Assembly (NCBI RefSeq): GCF_000372825.1
Contig: NZ_KB910516.1
Span: 3,205,825 to 3,269,824, forward strand
DNA from: Methylobacterium sp. 77
Lineage (GTDB): Bacteria > Pseudomonadota > Alphaproteobacteria > Rhizobiales > Beijerinckiaceae
Reading direction: 5' to 3'
DNA: 64,000 nucleotides
In this document: one piece after another, positions 3,950 through 15,327 of the stretch
How the letters are laid out: each line of letters opens with the position of its first letter
How positions within the stretch are numbered: the stretch's first letter is position 1
The notes under the pieces: model-generated
Databases searched by the model: none
Told to the model about the DNA's origin: nothing
What the model saw: the letters and a program-made list of their open reading frames with translations, nothing else
Program-made: the position numbers and the translations under genes

Positions 3950-5023
3950 TTAGTGGCGACGCAGCCACGTTCTCCACGATCCGGTGAGCCGGATTCTCAG
4001 CACGGGCAGCACGAGAGAGCCGGGAAGCACGAGCCCCGCGCTCAGGAAAACGGCCACGAGCAATCGCCGATAGAGAGTGTACCATTCCGGAAAGGACCTC
4101 AGTGCGCTCACGAGGTTCGGAAATCGAATACGTCTGCCCTCCAATATGTCACAGTAATTATCGTACCGCGTATGCAGATACATCTCGTCCGGGCGCTTGA
4201 TTTGCTCAGCAACCCCGCGCTCGATCATGCTTCTCTTGAGATGCTCGACCCTGCGACGAAATCGTTTCTGGTGCTTCCGCAAATGCGGCACGGGCGGCAA
4301 CTGATTGCGATAGGATTTATTCCGAAAATGAACTCTGTAGCGGCCGAGCGGTTCGCCGATACTGACGATGTCGCCGAAGAACGGTGCGGCCAGCAGCATC
4401 ACACCATCGACGGCAGAATCGTAATGCGCCTCATGGAGGAGGTCGCACAGGTCCCTGCGGAAGACGTTCCCGGATGTTGGCGGAGAGATGTAGGCGCCCG
4501 CACGTTCCACCTTCTTTACGAAGGCCTCTCGATGGCGACCTGCCGACAATGCGGGTAGAGCCGGTCCGACGACGGCTCCCGTCGCGTCGATCGTCAGCAA
4601 CGGAAATTGCAGCTTCGCGACGTTCTCGTCCAACAGAGAGATGATCTTCGAAATCGAGTTCGGCAACAACTCGTCATCGGCATCCAGGAACAGGATGAAG
4701 GGTGCGCTGGTCCTTGCGACCCCGTGCAGACAGGCACTGACCTGACCGCCGTTTTCTTTTCGAAACGATCTGACGTGAAGCCGTTCGATCGTTTCCCATG
4801 ACTGGTCGGTCGAGCCGTCATCGACGACGATCAGTTCATAACGTTCGGCTTTCTGAGACGTGACGCTTTCGATGGCGCTCTGGACGTAATCCTCATAGTT
4901 GTAACAGTTGATGATGATCGACAGTATCGGATCGTCGCCCTTCAGCATATCGACGTCCCGCCGAAAGGTGCCAACCGATCCGATCGAGATCCCCGCATGG
5001 GCCAAGTCCAATCGATCTCTCAT
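3950..5023 (-). CDS. Family 2 glycosyltransferase
   Basis: A 357-residue GT-A fold transferase. Residues about 32-150 carry the nucleotide-sugar domain: SIIINCYNYE, VVDDGS at 67-71 and the metal-binding DADD at 114-117. The C-terminus has a hydrophobic stretch (about residues 320-342), suggesting membrane association. ATG codons at 5023 and 4948 are both possible starts. Such enzymes add one sugar to a lipid, polysaccharide or small-molecule acceptor; donor and acceptor are unknown. Base composition is visibly lower in G+C than its neighbours, which suggests horizontal acquisition. It lies 300 bp downstream of the aminoacyl-carrier operon on the same strand; a functional link is possible but unproven. 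Confidence 0.85.
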   Translation of the reverse strand: MRDRLDLAHAGISIGSVGTFRRDVDMLKGDDPILSIIINCYNYEDYVQSAIESVTSQKAERYELIVVDDGSTDQSWETIERLHVRSFRKENGGQVSACLHGVARTSAPFILFLDADDELLPNSISKIISLLDENVAKLQFPLLTIDATGAVVGPALPALSAGRHREAFVKKVERAGAYISPPTSGNVFRRDLCDLLHEAHYDSAVDGVMLLAAPFFGDIVSIGEPLGRYRVHFRNKSYRNQLPPVPHLRKHQKRFRRRVEHLKRSMIERGVAEQIKRPDEMYLHTRYDNYCDILEGRRIRFPNLVSALRSFPEWYTLYRRLLVAVFLSAGLVLPGSLVLPVLRIRLTGSWRTWLRRH

Positions 5024-5322: not shown

Positions 5323-7044
5323 TCAGAGCAGGCGACGCACCACGTCCTTCAGGACCTCCGCCAGCCGCGCCTGAGCCGCGACCGTGCTCAGATCGTGGTC
5401 TGCCCCGTCGATCATCGTCACCGGTCCGCCGAGGCGTCGGGCGATCGCCGCGGGGGAGCGGCCGAGATTCTCGTGCAGGGCGGCGAGGCCGCGGTCGTCG
5501 CGGCTGTAGACGAGATCGAGGTGGGCGCCGCGACGGCGGAGATCCGCGATGCGCTGGGCCACCGTGCCACCGGGAGGGCGTGCCCGGAACAGGGGCGTGA
5601 TCCGCTTGGCGACGCGCGCGAAGCCGGCCTTGGCGAGAGCCCGGGCAATGGCCCCGACCCGGATTTCGCCGCGCACGAGCCTGCCCCAGACGGCGCCCCG
5701 CCGCAGCAGGTCGGCATAGGTCGAGGCGTTTCGGAACACGTTGCGGATGACGCCGTCGACGTCGTCCGCCGGGTTCCAGTCGAAGCAATAGGGATTGATG
5801 AGGAGCGCGCCCTTCAGCCGAGGCTCGCGGCAGACGGCCTGGAAGGCGAGATGGGCGCCGCTGCAGGAGCCGACGATGACGACGGGCCCGATCCGCACCG
5901 TCTCCAGGTGGTCGAGGGCGGCGCGCACGTCGTCGAGCGGATCGAGGCTGTAGAGCGGAGAGGCGCCGTCCGGCCGGTCGGGACTGTCGCCGATGCCGCG
6001 CAGGTCCATGCGCAGGGATAGGAAACCGTCCCGCGCGAGGCCGCGTGCGAGCGAGGTCGTCTGGCGGCCCCAGCCGGAATGCACGTTGGTGCCGGCATTG
6101 ACGAAGAGCACCATCGGCCGCTGCGGTTCGGCCTCGCGTGGCCGGCAGAGGATGCCGAACAGCGACGGCCCGAACCGGAGTGGCTCCTCCCGCCAGCCGG
6201 CGCCTTCAATCGCAGCGCCCACCGGCTGGCGGAACGCGGCGGGCCGCGGCTGCAGGCCGTCGCCGAGCCCTGCCAGCACCGCCGAGAAGGCCTCGTCCGG
6301 CGTCTCGGCATAGAGCGGGTTGGCGACGAGGGCGGCGAGGCCGGGGAAGGGCCGCGTCGTCACCTCGGCGCCGAGCGCGGTGAAGCGTGGACCGAGACCG
6401 CCGGCCTCGCCGCCGATGAGCAGGATCTCGCTTGCCGGCGCCTGCGCGACCGAGGCGAGGTCGATGGTCGAGAGGTCGGCGGCGAGGGACGAGCCGATAT
6501 GGAAGCCGCCGACGGTGAGGCAGCCATCCTGCTGCGGCAGGGGCGATCCGTCGGGCATACGCCCGATGGTGCGCGACTGCATCTTCATCTCGCGCAGATA
6601 GGCGCGCCCGCTCGCGAACGGCGCCAGCAGCACGAGCCGATCGACCCGCTCGCCCTCGGCCGCGAGGGCCGCGAGCGTGCCGCCGAGGCGAAGCCCGACG
6701 AGGACGATCTCCTCCGCCTGCGCCTCCTCCCGGAGGAAGCGGATCGCCCGTCGGATCGACCGGACCCAGCCATCGACGCTGTCGCCGCCCTCGTCGGCGG
6801 AATCGCCGGTGCCGGGATAGTCGAAACTCAGGGTCGCGCAGCCGGTGGCGGCTACCCGCTCGGCCAGAATGCGCCAGGGACGATGCGCCGAGAGTTGCTC
6901 GTAACCGAGGGTGCCGCACAGGACGACGCCACGGCGGCCGATCCCCGGGCTGAACCAGCCGAACAGGCCGTCGAAGGCGACGGGCTGAATCGGCAGGGTG
7001 GAAACGGCGGCGTCCCAGTCGACGCGGGGTGCCTCATACGCCAT
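5323..7044 (-). CDS. Tandem double alpha/beta hydrolase
   Basis: 573 residues made of two alpha/beta-hydrolase domains. The first (about 1-270) has VLCGTLGYEQ, FDYPGTGDS and an elbow GLRLGG in which arginine stands where the nucleophile should be. The second (about 290-573) has VNAGTNVHSG, MDLRGIGDS and an elbow GSCSGA whose central residue is cysteine, plus DGADHDLS with a candidate catalytic histidine. These elbows resemble the two separate hydrolases I recall from exosortase A/EPS loci, here fused in one chain. The ATG at 7044 overlaps the stop of the upstream GH2 gene by one base (TGATG), so translation is coupled. It is the last gene of the aminoacyl-carrier operon and a candidate for product release or transfer from the carrier protein. 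That role is inference. Confidence 0.8.
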   Translation of the reverse strand: MAYEAPRVDWDAAVSTLPIQPVAFDGLFGWFSPGIGRRGVVLCGTLGYEQLSAHRPWRILAERVAATGCATLSFDYPGTGDSADEGGDSVDGWVRSIRRAIRFLREEAQAEEIVLVGLRLGGTLAALAAEGERVDRLVLLAPFASGRAYLREMKMQSRTIGRMPDGSPLPQQDGCLTVGGFHIGSSLAADLSTIDLASVAQAPASEILLIGGEAGGLGPRFTALGAEVTTRPFPGLAALVANPLYAETPDEAFSAVLAGLGDGLQPRPAAFRQPVGAAIEGAGWREEPLRFGPSLFGILCRPREAEPQRPMVLFVNAGTNVHSGWGRQTTSLARGLARDGFLSLRMDLRGIGDSPDRPDGASPLYSLDPLDDVRAALDHLETVRIGPVVIVGSCSGAHLAFQAVCREPRLKGALLINPYCFDWNPADDVDGVIRNVFRNASTYADLLRRGAVWGRLVRGEIRVGAIARALAKAGFARVAKRITPLFRARPPGGTVAQRIADLRRRGAHLDLVYSRDDRGLAALHENLGRSPAAIARRLGGPVTMIDGADHDLSTVAAQARLAEVLKDVVRRLL

Positions 7045-9536
7045 CACAGCCGAACCTCGCACGAACCGAAACCAGCACGACCGAACCTCGCGACGGCGAT
7101 GCCGTTGATGGCGCTGATGCTGCCCTGCGGCTCGCCGGCCGCCTCCGCGACATCGGCGAGAACCACCCGGCGAACCGCACCGGGGCCGAGCGAGAACCAA
7201 TTGTCCGCCGGCCGCCCGAGAGAGGTCTCGATCCGGACCCCGAGCGCGTGCCGCTCGGTGACGATTCTGAGCACCCAGCCCGAATCCTCCCGGAGAAGTT
7301 CGACCGCGAGCCCGATGTCATGCGGCTCCGGGGTCAGTTCTCGCGGGACATGGAACGCCTCGGCGATCTCGGCGCCGGTCTCCGCTTCGGTGAGGCTGGC
7401 ATGGCCGAGCGTATGGGCCGGCGGGCCGAACCGGTAGGCGTCGGTGGCGTCGAAGAACCGCCCCAGCAGTTCCGCCGAGGACCATGATGCGGAGCTGCGC
7501 GGGCCGACCTCGATCTCCCGCTCGGCCTTGGCGACGACGCGGCCGGCCGCATCGGTGAAGGCGAGGCGGAGATTGGCGCGGCGGCCTTCGGCCGTCTCGT
7601 TATGGACATGGACGTGGAGCCCGTTCAGGCCCTCGTCCGAGAGGGTGACCTGGACGGGCCGGAACGCGCGCTTCAGGGCGTACCAGGCGGGCTTGGGGCG
7701 CCCGAGGTAATCGACGATGCCCCAGCCCGCGCCCGGCGCGAGATCGCGGAAGAACCAGACCAGCCCGCCGGCATTGGGCGAGCGCGCCCGGCGCCATTCG
7801 GCGAACACCGCCTCCATGCAGGCGCCGCTCGCCGCGCGGGCGAGGGTCAGGTAGCGCTCGGGATCGTTCCGACGGAGGGATGCGGGATCGACGCCGTAGA
7901 GCGTCGCCACGTAATGGTCGCGCACGTCCTCGAAATCCCACTCCGCGCCCCGGTCGCGGGGGATGCCCGACGCCCATTGCGGCGAGGTCGGATCGGTGAG
8001 GCCGCATGCGGCGAGGGTCGCGGCCTCCGGCACGTTGGCGAAGGCGAGGCATTCGGAGGCGAAGCCCACCTCGGCGCGGCGCGCATCCTCGAACGGCCGG
8101 CGATAGGCACCGACACCGTAGTAATGCGTCACGCCGGCATTGGTGGAGAACGGAAGGTCGCCCCCCGAGGGCGAGTTCGGCACCACGACGAGATCTGGCC
8201 GCGTCTCGGCCACCAGGGCGGGAAGGGACTCGACTACGAAGCGGCCGGCCCAGACTTCGCGCGGGAAGCCGAGCATCGCCGCCTGCTGCCAGACCTCGCT
8301 TCCGCCCGAGATCACGCAGAGCGACGGCGAGGTCTGGGTCCGGTCGAGGAACTGGGTGATCTCCGCGACCAGCGTCTCGCGGAAACCGGGATCCTCCGTC
8401 GGGTAGTCGAAATTGGCGAGCATCAGGTCCTGCCAGACCAGGATGCCGAGCTCGTCGCAGAGATCGTGGAAGGCCGAGGACTCGTACAGCGTGATCCCGG
8501 GCACGCGCAGCATGTTCATGCCGGCCTCGCGCGCCAGCGTCAGGAGGGGCAGGTAGCTGTCGCGGTCGCCTGGCAGGCCGGTGAGGTCGGGCGGGGTCCA
8601 GCAGGCGCCGCGGCAGAAGACCGGAACGCCGTTGATCGCGAGGCTCAGGCCCTCCTCGAACGGGCGCGTCAGGGTGATGCTGCGGAACCCGACCCGGCCG
8701 AGATCGAGGCGCCGGCCCGCGACCATGGCCTCCACGGCATGGAGCCTCGGCTCGCCATGGGTGTGGGGCCACCACGGAGCGACATCGGGCAGCAGGAGTT
8801 CGCCCTCGAACCCGTCGGGAGCGACCTGCCGCAGGGCGACCTCGCATCCGTCGCAGATCAGGAACGCGGGCCCGTCCGCCGTACCGTCGAGGGTGATCCG
8901 CGCGGTGAGACGTCCGGTCCCGCCATCGAGCGCCGCCTGCAGGTCGACGGACGCGATCGCCCCCGCGCCGCCGAGGGGCGACCGCGTCACCGGGCGATAG
9001 GGGCCGACGCTGTCGATGGACGGGCACCAGCCCGGCATGAAGCCGAGCACGCTGGTGCGGATGTGGCGTAGCGAGCCCGGCGTCGCCAGCAACGGCCGCC
9101 AGCGACCGCGCTTGTGCGGGCGCGCCAGTTCGGCCGAGAGCGAGCGGAAACAGAGGGCGATCTCGGTCTCCGCCGAGAGGTCCGCCTCGACCGTCTGCGC
9201 CAGGAACATCGAGCGGCCGGTCGCGGCACAGACGCCGTCGATCCAGATCTCGGCGATGGTCGCGAGGCCCTTGAAACACAGGCGCTCGCGCCCCGCGCCG
9301 GATATCCTGGTCCGGTACCAGATATCGGAATCGTGGAGCGGCGTCGGCGCCGCCTCGGACCATTGCCCGGCATCGCGCAGGGCCGCCGCCGCCGTGCCGG
9401 GGACGCGCGCGGGAATCCAGCCCTCTCCGGGAAGGTCGGCCGGTGTGGCGCAGGCCCCCGGCGGCGTCACCGCCAGGTGCCACGGGCCCTCGACCGCACG
9501 GGCCGGCACGCCGTCCACGGCGAGGATGCGGGCCAT
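7044..9536 (-). CDS. Glycoside hydrolase family 2, beta-mannosidase-like protein
   Basis: 830 residues with the GH2 order: N-terminal jelly-roll sugar-binding domain (about 15-180), Ig-like domain (about 190-290), then a TIM barrel. The barrel has LCDELGILVWQDLM (359-372), typical of beta-mannosidases. The acid/base glutamate appears as E414 in SGGSE, where the family usually has GNNE or GGNE, and the nucleophile as E495 in FASECLAF, so both catalytic glutamates seem kept. No signal peptide is visible, so the protein is probably cytoplasmic. It starts 9 bases after the DUF1839 gene. A glycosidase inside a carrier-protein operon is unexpected. It may cleave or transfer a sugar on the operon's product. 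Confidence 0.82.
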   Translation of the reverse strand: MARILAVDGVPARAVEGPWHLAVTPPGACATPADLPGEGWIPARVPGTAAAALRDAGQWSEAAPTPLHDSDIWYRTRISGAGRERLCFKGLATIAEIWIDGVCAATGRSMFLAQTVEADLSAETEIALCFRSLSAELARPHKRGRWRPLLATPGSLRHIRTSVLGFMPGWCPSIDSVGPYRPVTRSPLGGAGAIASVDLQAALDGGTGRLTARITLDGTADGPAFLICDGCEVALRQVAPDGFEGELLLPDVAPWWPHTHGEPRLHAVEAMVAGRRLDLGRVGFRSITLTRPFEEGLSLAINGVPVFCRGACWTPPDLTGLPGDRDSYLPLLTLAREAGMNMLRVPGITLYESSAFHDLCDELGILVWQDLMLANFDYPTEDPGFRETLVAEITQFLDRTQTSPSLCVISGGSEVWQQAAMLGFPREVWAGRFVVESLPALVAETRPDLVVVPNSPSGGDLPFSTNAGVTHYYGVGAYRRPFEDARRAEVGFASECLAFANVPEAATLAACGLTDPTSPQWASGIPRDRGAEWDFEDVRDHYVATLYGVDPASLRRNDPERYLTLARAASGACMEAVFAEWRRARSPNAGGLVWFFRDLAPGAGWGIVDYLGRPKPAWYALKRAFRPVQVTLSDEGLNGLHVHVHNETAEGRRANLRLAFTDAAGRVVAKAEREIEVGPRSSASWSSAELLGRFFDATDAYRFGPPAHTLGHASLTEAETGAEIAEAFHVPRELTPEPHDIGLAVELLREDSGWVLRIVTERHALGVRIETSLGRPADNWFSLGPGAVRRVVLADVAEAAGEPQGSISAINGIAVARFGRAGFGSCEVRL

Positions 9537-9545
9537 GCGACGACC

Positions 9546-10511
9546 CTAGGCGAGGGAGCGGTCGAGGGCGGCGAAGACCCTGTCGTAGGTCGCGGCCAGG
9601 CCGTCGAGCCGCTGGCACAGGCCCGTGGCGTTGCGCCGGCCGAAGGCGCGGGCCAGCTGGAACTGGAAGGCTTTGGCCTCCACCGCGAGCGTGTGCGCCG
9701 CCTCGGCGGCCGCCGAGAAGTCGCCGCCCCCCTCCCCGTCGAGCCACGCGAGATGGCTGCCGAGAAGCTCGAAATTGGCGCCGAGCTGGCGCGTCGTGTT
9801 GAAGGCGTAGCTGTGGAAGATTCCGAGCGGGTTCTGCACCAGCGTGTCCGCCCTCGCCGCCAGCGCCTCTCGGAACGCGACGATCGGGTTGGCGCGCGGC
9901 GCGAAGCGGCGGTGATGGCGCAGCAGGTCGAGCGCGACACGGGGCAGGTCGGCCCGCGCTAGCGGCGCGCCGATCTCCTTCACGAACTCGGCATAGGGAA
10001 ACAGCGGCGCGGGTCCGAAGATGCCCTCGTAATCGGCACCGCTCAGCCGGAAGCGGCCGGCATTGTGGAGATAGTCGAGCATGCGCGCCTGCGCGTCGAG
10101 GCCGAGGATGCCGATCGTGGTCTTGCCATGCTCGCGGCCATAGGTGGTGCCGGCGGTGTCGGGCAGGTGGATCGCGTCCACCTCCACCAGCACCGGGCAT
10201 CCGCGCGCGGCCTGGATCAGGGCATGCGCTTCGAGGCTCTCGAAGATCGCGAGTTCCTGGATCGACAGGCCGTAGAGCCGCTCGATGTCGGAGGCGAACG
10301 GCTTGAAGAAGGTGAACTGGTCGCCCTCGAAATCCTGGCGCAGGGTGAAGCCGAGCATCGCCTCGGGCACGAGGCCACGGGCATGGAGCAGCTCGATCCA
10401 GAGATCGACGTAGCAATTCGTCTCCGGCCAGATCCGGTCGGAGCCATGCAGGGTGGAAGAGGTCGGCGCCGGGGGCTCCGGCACCTCCTCGCGCACGAAC
10501 GCGGCGAGCAC
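9546..10511 (-). CDS. DUF1839 family protein
   Basis: A 321-residue soluble protein recognised as DUF1839, a family with no established biochemical role. Visible features are the N-terminal segment WPETNCYVDLWIELLHA, a conserved VEVDAIHLPDTAGTTYGREH segment (about residues 111-130) and FHSYAFNTTRQLGANFELLG near 227-246. It begins with GTG six bases after the stop of the ligase gene; AGGGG overlapping that stop serves as ribosome binding site. The Asp/His-containing central segment could be catalytic. From its place beside the aminoacyl-carrier ligase it may act on, or accept, the carrier-bound amino acid. That role is inference. Confidence 0.82.
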   Translation of the reverse strand: MLAAFVREEVPEPPAPTSSTLHGSDRIWPETNCYVDLWIELLHARGLVPEAMLGFTLRQDFEGDQFTFFKPFASDIERLYGLSIQELAIFESLEAHALIQAARGCPVLVEVDAIHLPDTAGTTYGREHGKTTIGILGLDAQARMLDYLHNAGRFRLSGADYEGIFGPAPLFPYAEFVKEIGAPLARADLPRVALDLLRHHRRFAPRANPIVAFREALAARADTLVQNPLGIFHSYAFNTTRQLGANFELLGSHLAWLDGEGGGDFSAAAEAAHTLAVEAKAFQFQLARAFGRRNATGLCQRLDGLAATYDRVFAALDRSLA

Positions 10512-10517
10512 CGGCCC

Positions 10518-11483
10518 CTAGCCCCAGAGCCGTTCGCGAACCGCGGCCGGCCATGCCGCGATGTCGAGGCCGTGGTGGCGGAGCAGCGCCAGGGTGATCC
10601 GCTCGAGCCCGAACCCGACGCAGGCCGTATGCGCGACCTCGCCATCCGCCTGCCGGATGTCCCAGATCGTGCCGAAATGGTCCTGATGGTAGTTGAAGCT
10701 GAGACAGGCGGTGGGCTTGTCCTCGCTGTTGACCGGCACGTTCAGTTCGAATTTCAGCCCCTGCGAGCGCTGGTTGTTGGCCAGCATCCGGCCGGCGCGG
10801 CCGAAGAACGGATCGTTGGCCGGATCGACCGCGATCGGCAGGCCGAGTTCGCGCATCATCGTCGTGCCGCGCTCCAGCCACATCTCGCGGAAGGCGAGAA
10901 CCTGATCGGGGCTGCCCATGCGGACGTATTCGCGCATGCGGAACATCTGCATCCGCGTCGGTTCGAGCGAAGGCTCGTGCCGGAAGCAGTAGGATTGCAG
11001 ATCGAACAACAGGCCCGCCGCCGGCAGCGCGCCGCGCGCGGCCGCCACCGGATAGAGCGGGTAGCAGGCGGCGGGCGTCAGCACGATCTCGCTGGCGGCC
11101 TGATCGCCGGTCCAGTCGGTGCCGGCCTCGATGCAGGCGAGGAGCCGGGCATGATCGGCATCGTTGCCGCAGAAGCAGTGGATGGTGCCGGCGAGGTTCG
11201 GAAACCCCTTGAGGTAGCCGCTGCGTTCGAAGGCGGGGCGGCTCATGCCCGGCGGGAAGCGCAGGGATTCCGCGCCATCCCCGGCACCGAGCCGGGTGGC
11301 GATCCGGTCCACGGCCTCGACCACGCTCTCGAAATCGCCGCTGCGCCCATAGAGTCCGTCGACGCCGGTGCGCACGAGGAGGCCGCGGTCGAAAAGCCGG
11401 TCGAGCAGCGAGCGCGGCTCGGACGACGCCGCCTCGTCGCGTGCATCGGACACGGGATCGAGGGCGAGAAGCTGGTCCATCAT
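10518..11483 (-). CDS. Amino acid:[carrier protein] ligase, truncated class II aminoacyl-tRNA synthetase homologue
   Basis: A 321-residue relative of the catalytic core of atypical (archaeal-type) seryl-tRNA synthetase, lacking a tRNA-binding domain. Known members from Bradyrhizobium and others activate glycine or alanine with ATP and load it on the phosphopantetheine of a discrete carrier protein. Candidate zinc ligands are C140, E185 and C288, with the spacing (45 and 103 residues) I recall for C131/E176/C279 of the Bradyrhizobium enzyme. Motif 2-like FRHEPS is at 167-172, motif 3-like [12 protein letters not shown] at 290-301. Its start overlaps the flavoprotein stop by four bases (ATGA). 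The carrier gene is two genes upstream, as expected for the partner. The amino acid cannot be fixed from sequence; glycine or alanine is most likely. Confidence 0.92.
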
Positions 11484-12658
11484 GCGCTCAGAAGCTGGCC
11501 CCCGCCCTTCTGCACGAGCAGGAGGTTGGCGGTGTTGGCGAGGATACGGTCGTTGCTGATCATCAGCGGCGCCGACAGGACGTCGCGCAGGGGCCGGCCG
11601 AGGCTGAACGGCGTGCCGTTCTTGTAGCCGGACAGACCGACAATCCCGAGGGCGCGCTGCACGATGTCGACGGATTTCGCCGAGATCGTCGTCTTGACGT
11701 TGTTGAGCATGACGGCGAACCCGATCGAGCCGAGTTCGTCCGCGTCGCCCTGCGCGTTCTCGAAGCGCCTGAGACCGGCGATCACCGTCCCCTTCATCGC
11801 CTGAAGCTCGTTGGCGGCCTCGGCGAGGCGCAGGGCGCCGGGAGGAACCTGCCCCGGCCGGCGCCGTGCCTCACCCTGGACATAGGCCCTGGCGCGATCG
11901 AGCGCGGAGCTGGCGATGCCGAACCAGACGCTGCTCCAGAGGAGGTGCGACGAGGCGAGCATCGATTGGGCCGCGATCTCGGCGAAGGGCTTCGGCAGGA
12001 TCTGCGCCACCGGCACGTCGCGCGCCTCGAGCTTGAACCCGTCGCTGCAGGTGCCGCGCATGCCCAGCGTATCCCAGGTGCTCGTGCGCTCGAGCGACAT
12101 CTGACCCTTCATCAGCGCGACGAGGACCTGATCGGACGAAGCCGCGTCGGGGTGGCGCCGGGCGGTGGCGAGGATGACGTCGGCATGGGCGCCGTAGGAG
12201 ATGACGGTGGCGTCCTTGGAGAAATGGAAGACGTCGCCCACCGTCTCGACCGCGCACAGGCTGTTGCGCAGGTCGCCGCCGACGCCGCCCTCGGTGGTGG
12301 CCGAGGCAAAGAGCAGCTGCTCGCGCGCCACATCTTCCATCAGGGTGCAATGCCAATCGCTGTCGAGGCCGTGCGAGACGAGGCTCGCGACCTTGATCTG
12401 GTGCATGGCGAAGACCATCGCCGCGGCGGAACAGGCCTGGGAAAGGGTGAAGCAGACCTCGGCGATCTGCGACATGCCGGCACTCTCGCCGCCGAACTGC
12501 ATCGGGATCTGCATCCCGAGCAGGCGCTCCGCCTTGAGAGAGGCGACCGCCTCGGCGGGGAAACGGGCCTGCCGGTCGACATCGTCGGCATGGAGGGCCG
12601 CGATCGCCGCGACCCGCTTCGCGCGGAGGGCGATGTCGTTCATGCCGGTGTCGGTCAT
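11480..12658 (-). CDS. Acyl-CoA-dehydrogenase-like flavoprotein
   Basis: 392 residues with the acyl-CoA dehydrogenase fold: N-terminal helical domain, middle beta domain ([13 protein letters not shown] near 116-128, [14 protein letters not shown] near 193-206) and C-terminal helical domain ([12 protein letters not shown] near 338-349). In standard dehydrogenases the C-terminal segment RDxxxxxIYEGTxEI holds the catalytic Glu. Here the aligned segment reads [15 protein letters not shown] and has no Glu at that place. That is closer to flavin monooxygenases and amine/nitroalkane oxidases of the same fold. It overlaps both the carrier gene and the ligase gene by four bases. The likely substrate is the aminoacyl-ACP; dehydrogenation at C-alpha/N or N-hydroxylation are both possible. 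The reaction is inference. Confidence 0.85.
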
Positions 12659-12909
12659 GCCGCGGCCGACATCGTCAGCTTGCTCACCGTCTCGACGATG
12701 ATGCGGATGGTGGAGAAGGAGCGCCGGTTGAGGAGGTTGTCCGGAAACTCGATGTTGAAGCGCTCTTCGAGCGCCAGCATCAGCTGGACCGATCCGAACG
12801 AATCCAGACCCTTGTCGAACAGGTTGTCGTCCTCACCGATCGCGTCGACCGTCTCGGACAATGCCGCCACGCCCTTCAGCGTCTCGCGTACATCTTGGGA
12901 ATGGACCAT
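12655..12909 (-). CDS. Discrete acyl carrier protein
   Basis: An 84-residue acidic helical protein of carrier-protein size. The phosphopantetheine attachment site is S37 in KGLDSFGSVQLM, matching the DS-x-x-x-V/L pattern, and LEERFNIEFPDNLL follows as helix 3 of the fold. It is the first gene of the operon. Its stop overlaps the start of the flavoprotein gene (ATGA). AAAAGG about 10 bases before the ATG serves as ribosome binding site. It most likely carries the amino acid loaded by the ligase at 10518-11483 rather than serving bulk fatty acid synthesis. A phosphopantetheinyl transferase is not visible in the window. Confidence 0.9.
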   Translation of the reverse strand: MVHSQDVRETLKGVAALSETVDAIGEDDNLFDKGLDSFGSVQLMLALEERFNIEFPDNLLNRRSFSTIRIIVETVSKLTMSAAA

Positions 12910-13359
12910 ATTGCCGAGCCTTTTAGGTAATATTCAATCGAAATTATCGCGTTGTTCGGCGCGGTCAATATCAAAGCACACCGCTAGTTAATAAGGTGCG
13001 ACGTGCTCATGTCCTGCATTGGTAAACGAAGTCCTATACTTGCCTCTCATGCGAGCAGTCGTTGCATAGGGGCCGTGGAGAGACGCCACGTTGTCGGCGC
13101 CATCGATCGCGCGGACGCGCCCCGGGAGGCCGAAAGGCGGGCGGTGAAAGGGGGGCTGGAAGGCTCATCGACGAGCGTCGATGTCGGTCGGAGAGACCGG
13201 CGCGGCCACATCGGACGGCGGCTGCTCCCATGAAAGGCCGGACGACGCAGACCAAAGCTCAACGCGTCTCACCGGGGCCCGGCGGACGATCGCCGCCGCG
13301 CGGGCAGACCTCGACGAGACACGCTCATCGAGGTCGGGGACGAGGGCCGTGCGAACGCT
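12910..13359. other. Intergenic region with promoter of the aminoacyl-carrier operon
   Basis: About 450 bp. The part at 12910-13020 is AT-rich and must hold the promoter driving the carrier-protein operon leftward. The rest (13020-13359) is ordinary GC-rich sequence after the ABC transporter stop; open frames in it look like noise. No terminator hairpin with a T tract was found. Confidence 0.45.
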
Positions 13360-15327
13360 CTACTCCGCCGGCATCGGCTCGGGCACCGTGGGCCGCTTCA
13401 CTTTCGGGAGGGCGGATTCTTCGGGGAGCGGGGTCTCGTCGTCGGCGCGGTCTTCTTCCGCCCGCTTGAGGATCTCGCGGGCCTCGTCGGCCTCGCGCTG
13501 GCGGCTCCAGAGGGAGGCGTAGACCCCACCGTCATCGAGAAGGCTCTGGTGGTCGCCGCGCTCGACGATCACGCCTCGGTCGAGCACGATGATCTCGTCG
13601 GCATTCACCACCGTCGACAGGCGATGGGCGATGACGAGGGTGGTGCGTCCGCGGCTGACCTTGTCGAGGGCGTCCTGGATCTCGCGCTCGGTGAAGGAAT
13701 CCAGCGCCGAGGTCGCCTCGTCGAGGACCAGGATCGGCGGTCCCTTGAGGATCGTGCGGGCGATGGCGACGCGCTGCTTCTCGCCACCCGAGAGTTTCAG
13801 CCCGCGCTCGCCCACCGGCGTGTCGTAGCCTTCCGGCAGGGCGGAGACGAAGCGGTCGATCTGGGCGAGACGCGCCGCCTCGCGGACCTCCGCGTCGCTC
13901 GCGTCCCATTGGCCGTAGCGGACGTTGTAGCCGATCGTGTCGTTGAACAGCACGGTGTCCTGAGGGACCATGCCGATGGCGGCCCGCAGGCTGCCCTGCT
14001 CGACCTGCGCGATGTCCTGGCCGTCGATGAGGATGCGGCCCGATTGCGGCTCGTAGAACCGGAACAGCAGGCGCGACAGGGTCGACTTGCCGGCGCCGGA
14101 CGGACCGACGATGGCGATGGTGCGCCCGGCCGGCACTTCGAAGCTGACGCCGCGCAGGATCGGCCGGGCCGGATCGTAGGCGAAGCGCACGTCCTCGAAA
14201 CGGACCACGCCCGCCGACACGACGAGGGGCTTGGCACCCGGCCTGTCCGCGATCTCGGGGTTGCGATGCAGGATCTGGAACATGTCGTCGATGTCGATGA
14301 GCGCCTGTTTGATCTCGCGGTAGATCATGCCCATGAAGTTGAGCGGCATCGAGAGCTGCACCAGCATGGTGTTGACGAGGACGAACCCGCCCAGCGTCGT
14401 GCGCCCGGCCATGATGTCGCGCGCGGCAAGCCACATCACGATCGTCATGCCGATGGTGAAGATCAGCGCCTGGCCGGCATTGAGCACGGCGAGCGAGACG
14501 TAGGTCTGGGTCGAGGCTTTCTCGTATTTCGCCATGGAGGCGTCGTAGCGCTCGGCTTCGCGGCGCTCGGCACCGAAATACTTGACCGTCTCGAAGTTGA
14601 GCAGCGAATCCACCGCCTTGGTGTTGGCGTCGGTATCCGAATTGTTCATCCGGCGGCGGATTTCGATCCGCCACTGCGTCGCCTTCCAGGTGAAGCCGAG
14701 ATAGGCCGCGACCATGACGAAGACGACGACCGAGTAGAGCCAGTCGAACTCGTAGGCGAGCACGCCGATGACGAGCAGGAACTCGACGATGGTGGGGACC
14801 AGCGTCAGCACCATCAGGCGCGACAATTCCTCGATGCCACCGCGCCCGCGCTCCAGCACGCGGGTGAGGCCGCCGGTCTTGCGCTCGAGATGGAAGCGCA
14901 GGCTCAGCCGGTGCATGTGCTCGAAGGTCTGCAGCGCGAGGCGCCGCACGGCGTGCATCGCCACCTTCGCGAAGAGGCCGTCGCGCACCTGGGTGAGCAC
15001 GGCCATGATCACGCGGGTCACGCCGTAGAGCCCGATCATCAGCATCGGCGCCGCGAACAGCCCGGTCGGCAGCGCGGCACGGACGCCGTCCTTGTCGCCG
15101 ATCGCGGCGACCAGGGCATCGGTCGCCCATTTGAAGGTGAAGGGCGTCAGCATCGTCACGAATTTCGCGACGAGGAGCAGGCCGAAGGCGAGGAAGACGC
15201 GCCGCTGCAGGTCCGGCCGCGTATGGGGCCAGAGGTAGGGCCAGAGCCGGCGATAGGTGGCGAACAGGCCGGGGCGCTCGGGCGGCGTGGTGCCGCCGCC
15301 CGCCGCTGGGGTGGGATCGATGTTCAT
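13360..15327 (-). CDS. ABC transporter, fused permease/ATPase of the Atm1/ABCB7 type
   Basis: A 655-residue half transporter: six membrane helices (about residues 40-345) followed by an ATPase domain with Walker A GPSGAGKST, signature LSGGEKQRVAIAR and Walker B ILVLDEATSALD. The segment GMVPQDTVLFNDTIGYNVRYG and the overall length match Atm1-like exporters, which move glutathione-linked sulfur or metal compounds out of the cytoplasm and support iron-sulfur and metal homeostasis. The C-terminal tail after residue 600 is charged and proline-rich. It stands alone on the minus strand. Family clear, substrate inferred. Confidence 0.88.
   Translation of the reverse strand: MNIDPTPAAGGGTTPPERPGLFATYRRLWPYLWPHTRPDLQRRVFLAFGLLLVAKFVTMLTPFTFKWATDALVAAIGDKDGVRAALPTGLFAAPMLMIGLYGVTRVIMAVLTQVRDGLFAKVAMHAVRRLALQTFEHMHRLSLRFHLERKTGGLTRVLERGRGGIEELSRLMVLTLVPTIVEFLLVIGVLAYEFDWLYSVVVFVMVAAYLGFTWKATQWRIEIRRRMNNSDTDANTKAVDSLLNFETVKYFGAERREAERYDASMAKYEKASTQTYVSLAVLNAGQALIFTIGMTIVMWLAARDIMAGRTTLGGFVLVNTMLVQLSMPLNFMGMIYREIKQALIDIDDMFQILHRNPEIADRPGAKPLVVSAGVVRFEDVRFAYDPARPILRGVSFEVPAGRTIAIVGPSGAGKSTLSRLLFRFYEPQSGRILIDGQDIAQVEQGSLRAAIGMVPQDTVLFNDTIGYNVRYGQWDASDAEVREAARLAQIDRFVSALPEGYDTPVGERGLKLSGGEKQRVAIARTILKGPPILVLDEATSALDSFTEREIQDALDKVSRGRTTLVIAHRLSTVVNADEIIVLDRGVIVERGDHQSLLDDGGVYASLWSRQREADEAREILKRAEEDRADDETPLPEESALPKVKRPTVPEPMPAE

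Follow-up and report, generated by a model that had tools for sequence, protein, structure and literature searches.

A conserved operon proposed to act on carrier-protein-bound amino acids, with a predicted DUF1839 condensing enzyme

The DUF1839 protein encoded in the window (the whole stretch of 64,000 nucleotides analysed, from a genome consisting of a single contig of 4.66 Mb) has a predicted fold that it shares with amide-forming enzymes dependent on carrier proteins. It belongs to an operon transcribed from the minus strand in the order acyl carrier protein (ACP), flavoprotein, ligase, DUF1839, GH2 and hydrolase (Table 1). The operon may encode a stand-alone, non-modular carrier-protein amide synthetase that would load an amino acid, oxidise it and condense it with an amine, perhaps an amino sugar, a proposal that is given an even chance. 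The first five genes form a module that occurs in many soil and plant bacteria.

Table 1. Features of the operon and its upstream region in the window
Feature	Length	Position	Strand	Assignment or site
ACP	84 aa	12655..12909	-	PF00550, NF005480; phosphopantetheine site Ser37
Acyl-CoA-dehydrogenase-fold flavoprotein	392 aa	11480..12658	-	Acyl-CoA_dh N and C domains
Amino acid:[carrier protein] ligase, SerRS-derived	321 aa	10518..11483	-	NF005479
DUF1839, predicted papain-fold carrier-protein-dependent condensing enzyme		9546..10511	-	PF08893; C33/T131/H149
GH2, beta-mannosidase-like	830 aa	7044..9536	-	PF22666 (GH2 N domain)
Two-domain alpha/beta hydrolase	573 aa	5323..7044	-	Abhydrolase_1/Hydrolase_4
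Intergenic stretch ahead of ACP, likely promoter site	450 bases	12910..13359	-	
MsbA-like ABC exporter, upstream neighbour		13360..15327	-	PF00664/PF00005

Organization and conservation of the operon

The six gene families named by a sequence-only reading of the window (ACP, ligase, acyl-CoA dehydrogenase, DUF1839, GH2 and hydrolase) were all matched by profiles. The genes were also said to be coupled by 4-base overlaps or gaps under 10 bases. They do lie on one strand, and this description holds for the ACP/flavoprotein (12655-12658) and flavoprotein/ligase (11480-11483) overlaps of 4 bases and for the gaps of 6 bases between ligase and DUF1839 and of 9 bases between DUF1839 and GH2, but not for the last junction, where GH2 and hydrolase overlap by 1 base (TGATG, with the ATG start at 7044). 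No match to a sigma-70 consensus promoter was found in the 450-base stretch upstream of ACP. Because of this gap, the MsbA-like exporter is probably a unit separate from the operon. It also lies directly upstream of ACP in three other loci (L059, L096, L097) and is adjacent in close relatives only. Downstream of the operon, a GT2 glycosyltransferase gene (window, 3950-5023) has no close counterpart in related loci and forms a single-member cluster.

Co-conservation of the genes, on which the sequence-only reading was made to depend, was surveyed in two sets of loci. The first consisted of 40 stretches around DUF1839, none longer than 20 kb, and the second of 80 genome loci (the best 80 of at least 585 candidates) plus 5 plasmid loci. 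The sets overlap partly, with 117 distinct proteins among the 122 aligned DUF1839 sequences. The five genes from ACP to GH2 were found in the same order on one strand in 34/40 stretches of the first set, and in order in 79/85 loci of the second (80 of these being the best of at least 585 candidates). A chance operon was rejected on the basis of this conserved order, and the lack of co-conservation that would have refuted the sequence-only reading did not appear. Four of the six exceptions in the first set end at contig ends and two are real; the module lacks GH2 in L056, and in L090 some 30 kb of one contig separate DUF1839 from the ligase and ACP (L221). The remainder of the second set comprises four loci that end at contig ends, a metagenome-assembled locus with DUF1839-GH2 only (L167), and a solitary DUF1839 (L178, 11950-12936). 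The latter is carried by a conjugative Rhizobium plasmid, adjoins a ParB-domain gene and has its C/T/H residues intact. Median gaps between called genes are -4 bases for ACP-flavoprotein, 3 for flavoprotein-ligase, 4 for ligase-DUF1839 and 11 for DUF1839-GH2.

The module loci belong to alpha- and betaproteobacteria, with hosts that include Methylobacterium, Azospirillum, Rhizobium, Agrobacterium, Shinella, Mesorhizobium, Stappia, Caballeronia and Mycetohabitans. Of 199 genomes of the window's family, 40 gave a match to DUF1839 and 72 a match to the ligase (67 above the curated cut-off), and the 72 include all 40. Among 385 genomes of the class, DUF1839 was found in 5 and the ligase in 19, again with all 5 within the 19. 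DUF1839 thus goes with the ligase, and the reverse is not true.

The hydrolase gene was found near 18/40 loci of the first set and 61/85 of the second (80 of them the best of at least 585 candidates). It was rejected as an invariable core member, as no match was found near the module in 22/40 and 24/85 loci, some of them at contig ends. It is convergent or upstream in some loci; where it is on the same strand as GH2, 45 of 50 gaps are between -40 and 100 bases.

The full six-gene module is present on a plasmid of the endofungal symbiont Mycetohabitans rhizoxinica HKI 454 (L177), where it is immediately preceded by an acyltransferase-3 gene. In Methylobacterium aquaticum and relatives (L102, L104, L105, L111, L112, L113), the module sits by replicon partition genes, ParA-like and mostly also RepB-like, directly upstream. 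EF-P, EpmA-like and EpmB-like genes directly precede ACP in 22 loci (L128, L130, L142 and L154 among these), many of them rhizobial; they were set aside as partners of the module, their presence being judged to reflect a shared rhizobial location.

Proteins of the module

The ACP scored 91 bits on NF005480 (cut-off 72), and Ser37, proposed earlier as the carrier site, is invariant in 87/87 aligned sequences. The ligase scored 513.9 bits on NF005479 (cut-off 357) and aligned over residues 26-318 with the Bradyrhizobium Bll0957 structures 4h2w and 3mey, at 344 and 331 bits respectively. The zinc ligands of Bll0957, which we take to be C131, E176 and C279, were mapped by hand through this alignment, on the assumption that the PDB chain carries a 20-residue tag. 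The corresponding positions C140, E185 and C288 are invariant in 117/117 aligned sequences, which bears out the zinc-ligand spacing noticed earlier. The best ligase per genome scored 463-521 bits on NF005479 where DUF1839 is present (259 for one truncated protein) and 404-468 bits, with a few below 135, where it is absent. For amino acid:[carrier protein] ligases, both structures and activity have been determined. Their substrates are given as Gly, Ala and Ser in a 2022 review, which calls the role of the loaded carrier unknown (PMC9437257).

Both sequence and fold comparison assign the acyl-CoA dehydrogenase fold to the flavoprotein. The position of the canonical catalytic Glu, behind an RD motif, is occupied by Ile367, and Ile is found there in 96% of 109 sequences. 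The same position holds Glu in 3pfd, 8i4p and 7w0j and Thr in 7p98, while the alignment with 9w60 ends earlier. An ordinary role in beta-oxidation was set aside because of this replacement of the canonical Glu. In sequence comparison, the best acyl-CoA dehydrogenase scored 97 bits, the nitrososynthase 3mxl 75, DnmZ 71 and a prolyl-ACP dehydrogenase 57. The fold ranking is headed by dehydrogenases (Z 39.4), with the carrier-tethered oxidases TcsD (38.4) and ColB1 (38.1) and the monooxygenases 5z8t (38.4), MsuC (37.6), TdsC (37.6) and DszC (37.4). All classes fall within about two Z units, and the fold does not separate dehydrogenases from oxygenases.

The window's DUF1839 protein matched PF08893 at 371 bits. 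A DUF1839 profile retrieved nothing significant among the sequences of solved structures, and relatives appeared in the fold comparison only. There, the model matched over nearly its full length CcbD/LmbD, CtaG and the AziU2/U3 complex (matching AziU chain unspecified), with identities of 10-15% and TM scores of 0.52-0.64. Cys33 is invariant in 122/122 aligned sequences and would form a triad with Thr/Ser131 and His149; a triad in the canonical order Cys-His-Glu/Asp was not found, His128 being kept in only 112/122. The Thr/Ser and His residues are described for DUF1839 in PMC10318531. A helix with K280, R288 and R292 is conserved as well. A carrier protein and a loading enzyme are encoded beside DUF1839 in 34/40 and 79/85 loci. 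A shared fold by itself shows no function, and CcbD chemistry is not assured for DUF1839, since the order of its triad differs from the Cys-His-Glu of CcbD.

The best PDB matches of the GH2 protein are beta-mannosidases (160 bits to 5n6u), and no signal peptide was apparent on reading its sequence. Glu414 and Glu495 are invariant in 114/114 sequences. Glu495 aligns with a Glu of 5n6u; the alignment at Glu414, which is presumably the acid/base by motif position, is shifted by a gap.

The hydrolase had been described as double. Two domains are indeed present, but the N domain lacks a nucleophile and is dead by its sequence: it has GLRLGG there, and the position holds Arg in 49 of 76 sequences, Gly in 21 and Leu, Ala or Ile in the other 6. 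The C domain has a Cys nucleophile, Cys394 in a GSCSG motif, in 76/76 sequences, with Asp517 in 67/76 and His550 in 69/76, the remainder being mostly alignment gaps. The protein scored below cut-off on the profiles of exosortase-A-associated hydrolases 1 (TIGR03100, 115.6 bits against 168.45) and 2 (TIGR03101, 80.5 against 202.75), and no exosortase was found by Pfam among the window neighbours scanned.

Six loci with a canonical exosortase-A hydrolase 1 were compared. Four (L216, L217, L219, L220) contain a tandem pair of hydrolase-like genes and, running divergently, relatives of an AMP-binding ligase and of an Orn/DAP/Arg-decarboxylase-like gene, these two families being confirmed by Pfam in L219 only; in L218, the decarboxylase-like gene alone was recognised. 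BLAST also picked out an ACP in L216, and Pfam one in L219. The nucleophile of hydrolase 1 is Cys (GLCDG in L216, GNCDA in L219 and L220), and hydrolase 2 of L216 has Arg at this place (GLRSG). The operon's hydrolase resembles these two hydrolases fused, and this would tie it to another ACP system. Such a system, parallel to the module and with Cys as the nucleophile of its hydrolase 1, is seen at L216 (8494-10465), L219 (9611-15130) and L220 (9498-15034).

Proposed pathway and alternatives

In the proposed pathway, the ligase would activate a small amino acid (by analogy with characterised homologues, Gly or Ala) and load it onto the phosphopantetheine of Ser37, to judge by its strong family membership. 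The flavoprotein would then oxidise the thioester-bound aminoacyl group by imine formation or N-oxygenation, and not by ordinary acyl-CoA dehydrogenation. The acyl group would pass to Cys33 of DUF1839 and on to an amine, the amide being formed by a CcbD-like ping-pong mechanism; here the fold comes from prediction and the residues from conservation, and we infer the activity. A possible acceptor is an amino sugar or a glycan intermediate; GH2 would process the sugar conjugate, and the Cys alpha/beta-hydrolase may serve as an editing thioesterase or a second acyltransferase; these last roles are the weakest part of the scheme. The outline of loading, oxidation while bound and transfer, put forward by the sequence-only reading, agrees with these findings, and its transfer step gains support from the predicted fold of DUF1839.

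Wzz-type chain-length proteins, GT4 glycosyltransferases, Wzx flippase, GumK, GH5 and acyltransferase 3 recur as neighbours of the module across genera. By tblastn, Wzz-like genes were found near the module in 16/40 loci of the first set, 15/80 genome loci of the second (the best 80 of at least 585 candidates) and 1/5 plasmid loci, compared with 4/27 ligase loci without DUF1839 and 0/11 arbitrary stretches. The enrichment has a Fisher p of 0.004 for the first set (16/40 against 4/38) and is weaker over all module loci (32/125), with p 0.07 when set against 4/38 and 0.32 when set against 4/27, and the comparison leans towards the module as the markers were drawn from clusters in module loci. 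No polysaccharide marker was found by tblastn in 82/125 loci, nor in the first 20 kb of the window. The module core contains no sugar-nucleotide or amino-sugar gene, and a literature search gave no paper linking an acyl-carrier-protein ligase with exopolysaccharide. The association with polysaccharide genes is suggestive in some lineages and in general not established, and the glycosylated acceptor envisaged earlier is weakly supported. It is a serious possibility, though less likely than not, that the ligase, the free ACP and the triad-swapped CcbD-like enzyme form a dedicated pathway whose product is an N-(oxidised aminoacyl) amino sugar belonging to, or destined for, a surface glycan. In that case amino acid:[carrier protein] ligases would gain their first assigned role in biology, and a reaction like that of lincosamide synthetase would be widespread in alpha- and betaproteobacteria.

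The ligase was further examined in 27 loci without DUF1839. The class search supplied 5 of them, 2 are second copies from genomes that also have the module, and 20 come from the 32 ligase-only genomes of the family. Five more distant loci (L186-L190) were left out. The flavoprotein is kept in 24/27, and a MetY-like PLP enzyme is present in 15/27, an uncharacterised 291-aa protein in 14/27 and a homoserine-O-succinyltransferase-like (HTS-like) protein in 12/27; neither DUF1839 nor GH2 was found in these loci (tblastn, E 1e-4). A second type of ligase locus (L181, L183, L184, L222, L223, L235-L254) combines flavoprotein and ligase, in most cases with a divergent ACP, and L183 has in addition AMP-ligases, an SDR and a ThDP enzyme; this type looks like a biosynthetic cluster. 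A third type (L182, 5454-10298; L185, 9032-12517) has ligase, ACP and a Cys hydrolase, and lacks flavoprotein, DUF1839 and GH2. From the make-up of these loci, the loading pair is used with varying partners. HTS enzymes use a Cys, and Cys137 is invariant in 11/11 of the HTS-like proteins. It is tempting to regard DUF1839, the HTS-like protein and the hydrolase as alternative Cys-nucleophile off-loading enzymes.

Such settings bear on the possibility that the product is a small diffusible metabolite derived from an amino acid, akin to a non-ribosomal peptide or a signal, with DUF1839 coupling the carrier-bound unit to a small amine independently of any polysaccharide. This reading, a serious candidate with less than an even chance, would suit the biosynthetic look of ligase loci without DUF1839 (the PLP enzymes, and the AMP-ligases and ThDP enzyme of L183), the five-gene island whose flanks differ from genus to genus, the MFS and MsbA-like transporters found by Pfam near the operon, and the fold relative CtaG, described as a peptidyl transferase of antibiotic synthesis. 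Because the polysaccharide enrichment is weaker over all loci and the markers favour the module, its standing was raised and that of the glycan reading lowered. However, a beta-mannosidase-like GH2 is nearly constant in the module, and polysaccharide genes recur nearby in several genera in varied arrangements.

A Dlt-like O-aminoacylation of a surface polymer, resembling D-alanylation, in which the aminoacyl-ACP would provide an ester to an exported glycan, is very improbable. The ACP does resemble DltC, but at 41.8 bits, below the cut-off of 68; neither an MBOAT protein (DltB) nor DltD was found by Pfam among the operon genes and window neighbours, and the DUF1839 model matches amide-forming enzymes. 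Such a system was set aside on the first two grounds. Least probable is a catabolic or redox function in which the flavoprotein oxidises Gly-S-ACP and the hydrolase then frees the product, glyoxylate for instance, while DUF1839 and GH2 act elsewhere: ligase and flavoprotein do occur together without these two in 24/27 such loci, but DUF1839 is found in no ligase-free genome among the 199, lies 6 bases behind the ligase in the window, and has fold relatives, CcbD and CtaG, that are described as using carrier proteins.

Comparison with known systems

The sequence-only reading had no assigned product for the gene set. The set had been noticed in 2010, in a Biology Direct note added in proof, reportedly by Aravind, de Souza and Iyer. 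The passage describes, for a SerRS paralogue, a neighbourhood of ACP, redox enzyme, uncharacterised Atu2574 and glycosidase (PMC2922099). It predicts that Atu2574 is an amide ligase acting on the amine of a cell-surface sugar and that the redox enzyme performs an oxidation, monooxygenation being favoured (PMC2922099). From its place in the gene row, Atu2574 would be DUF1839. The neighbourhood is this one and the prediction nearly the same; the passage contains no fold, residues or counts. The predicted fold, the residue conservation and the counts now support the amide-ligase forecast. The reading of the hydrolase is added, and the surface sugar stays a candidate acceptor. The literature passages on DUF1839 and on amino acid:[carrier protein] ligases mention no assigned product of the module.

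DUF1839, for which a mechanistic relative and exact residues can be named, is the likely transfer enzyme, and under the proposal an enzyme family long without a role would gain a testable one. Should the proposal be true, a new chemical decoration or small molecule would be made in soil- and plant-associated bacteria by a compact five-protein kit.

The ligase shares family and zinc-ligand positions with the Bll0957-type ligases (3MEY, 4H2W); those from the fetched genomes without DUF1839 differ from it in gene setting. Exosortase-A hydrolases 1 and 2 are separate genes, whereas the hydrolase of the operon is one fused chain. BtrH, an ACP:aminoglycoside acyltransferase (PF14399), is described as papain-like, with a carrier-protein donor and an aminoglycoside acceptor. 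BtrH and DUF1839 are separate Pfam families; PF14399 gave weak matches to 6/21 DUF1839 proteins (best E 0.0019) and none to the window protein.

The predicted fold of DUF1839, its conserved Cys and its putative carrier-protein donor partner are shared with CtaG, AziU2/U3 and the lincosamide condensing enzymes CcbD/LmbD. CcbD is described as having a carrier-protein partner, an amino acid as donor and an amino sugar as acceptor, and CtaG as using a carrier protein. The triad is Cys-His-Glu in CcbD and Cys-Thr/Ser-His in DUF1839. The module also differs from the CcbD/LmbD systems in that the donor would be loaded by a SerRS-type ligase and probably oxidised first, and in that the operon adds GH2 and a Cys hydrolase.
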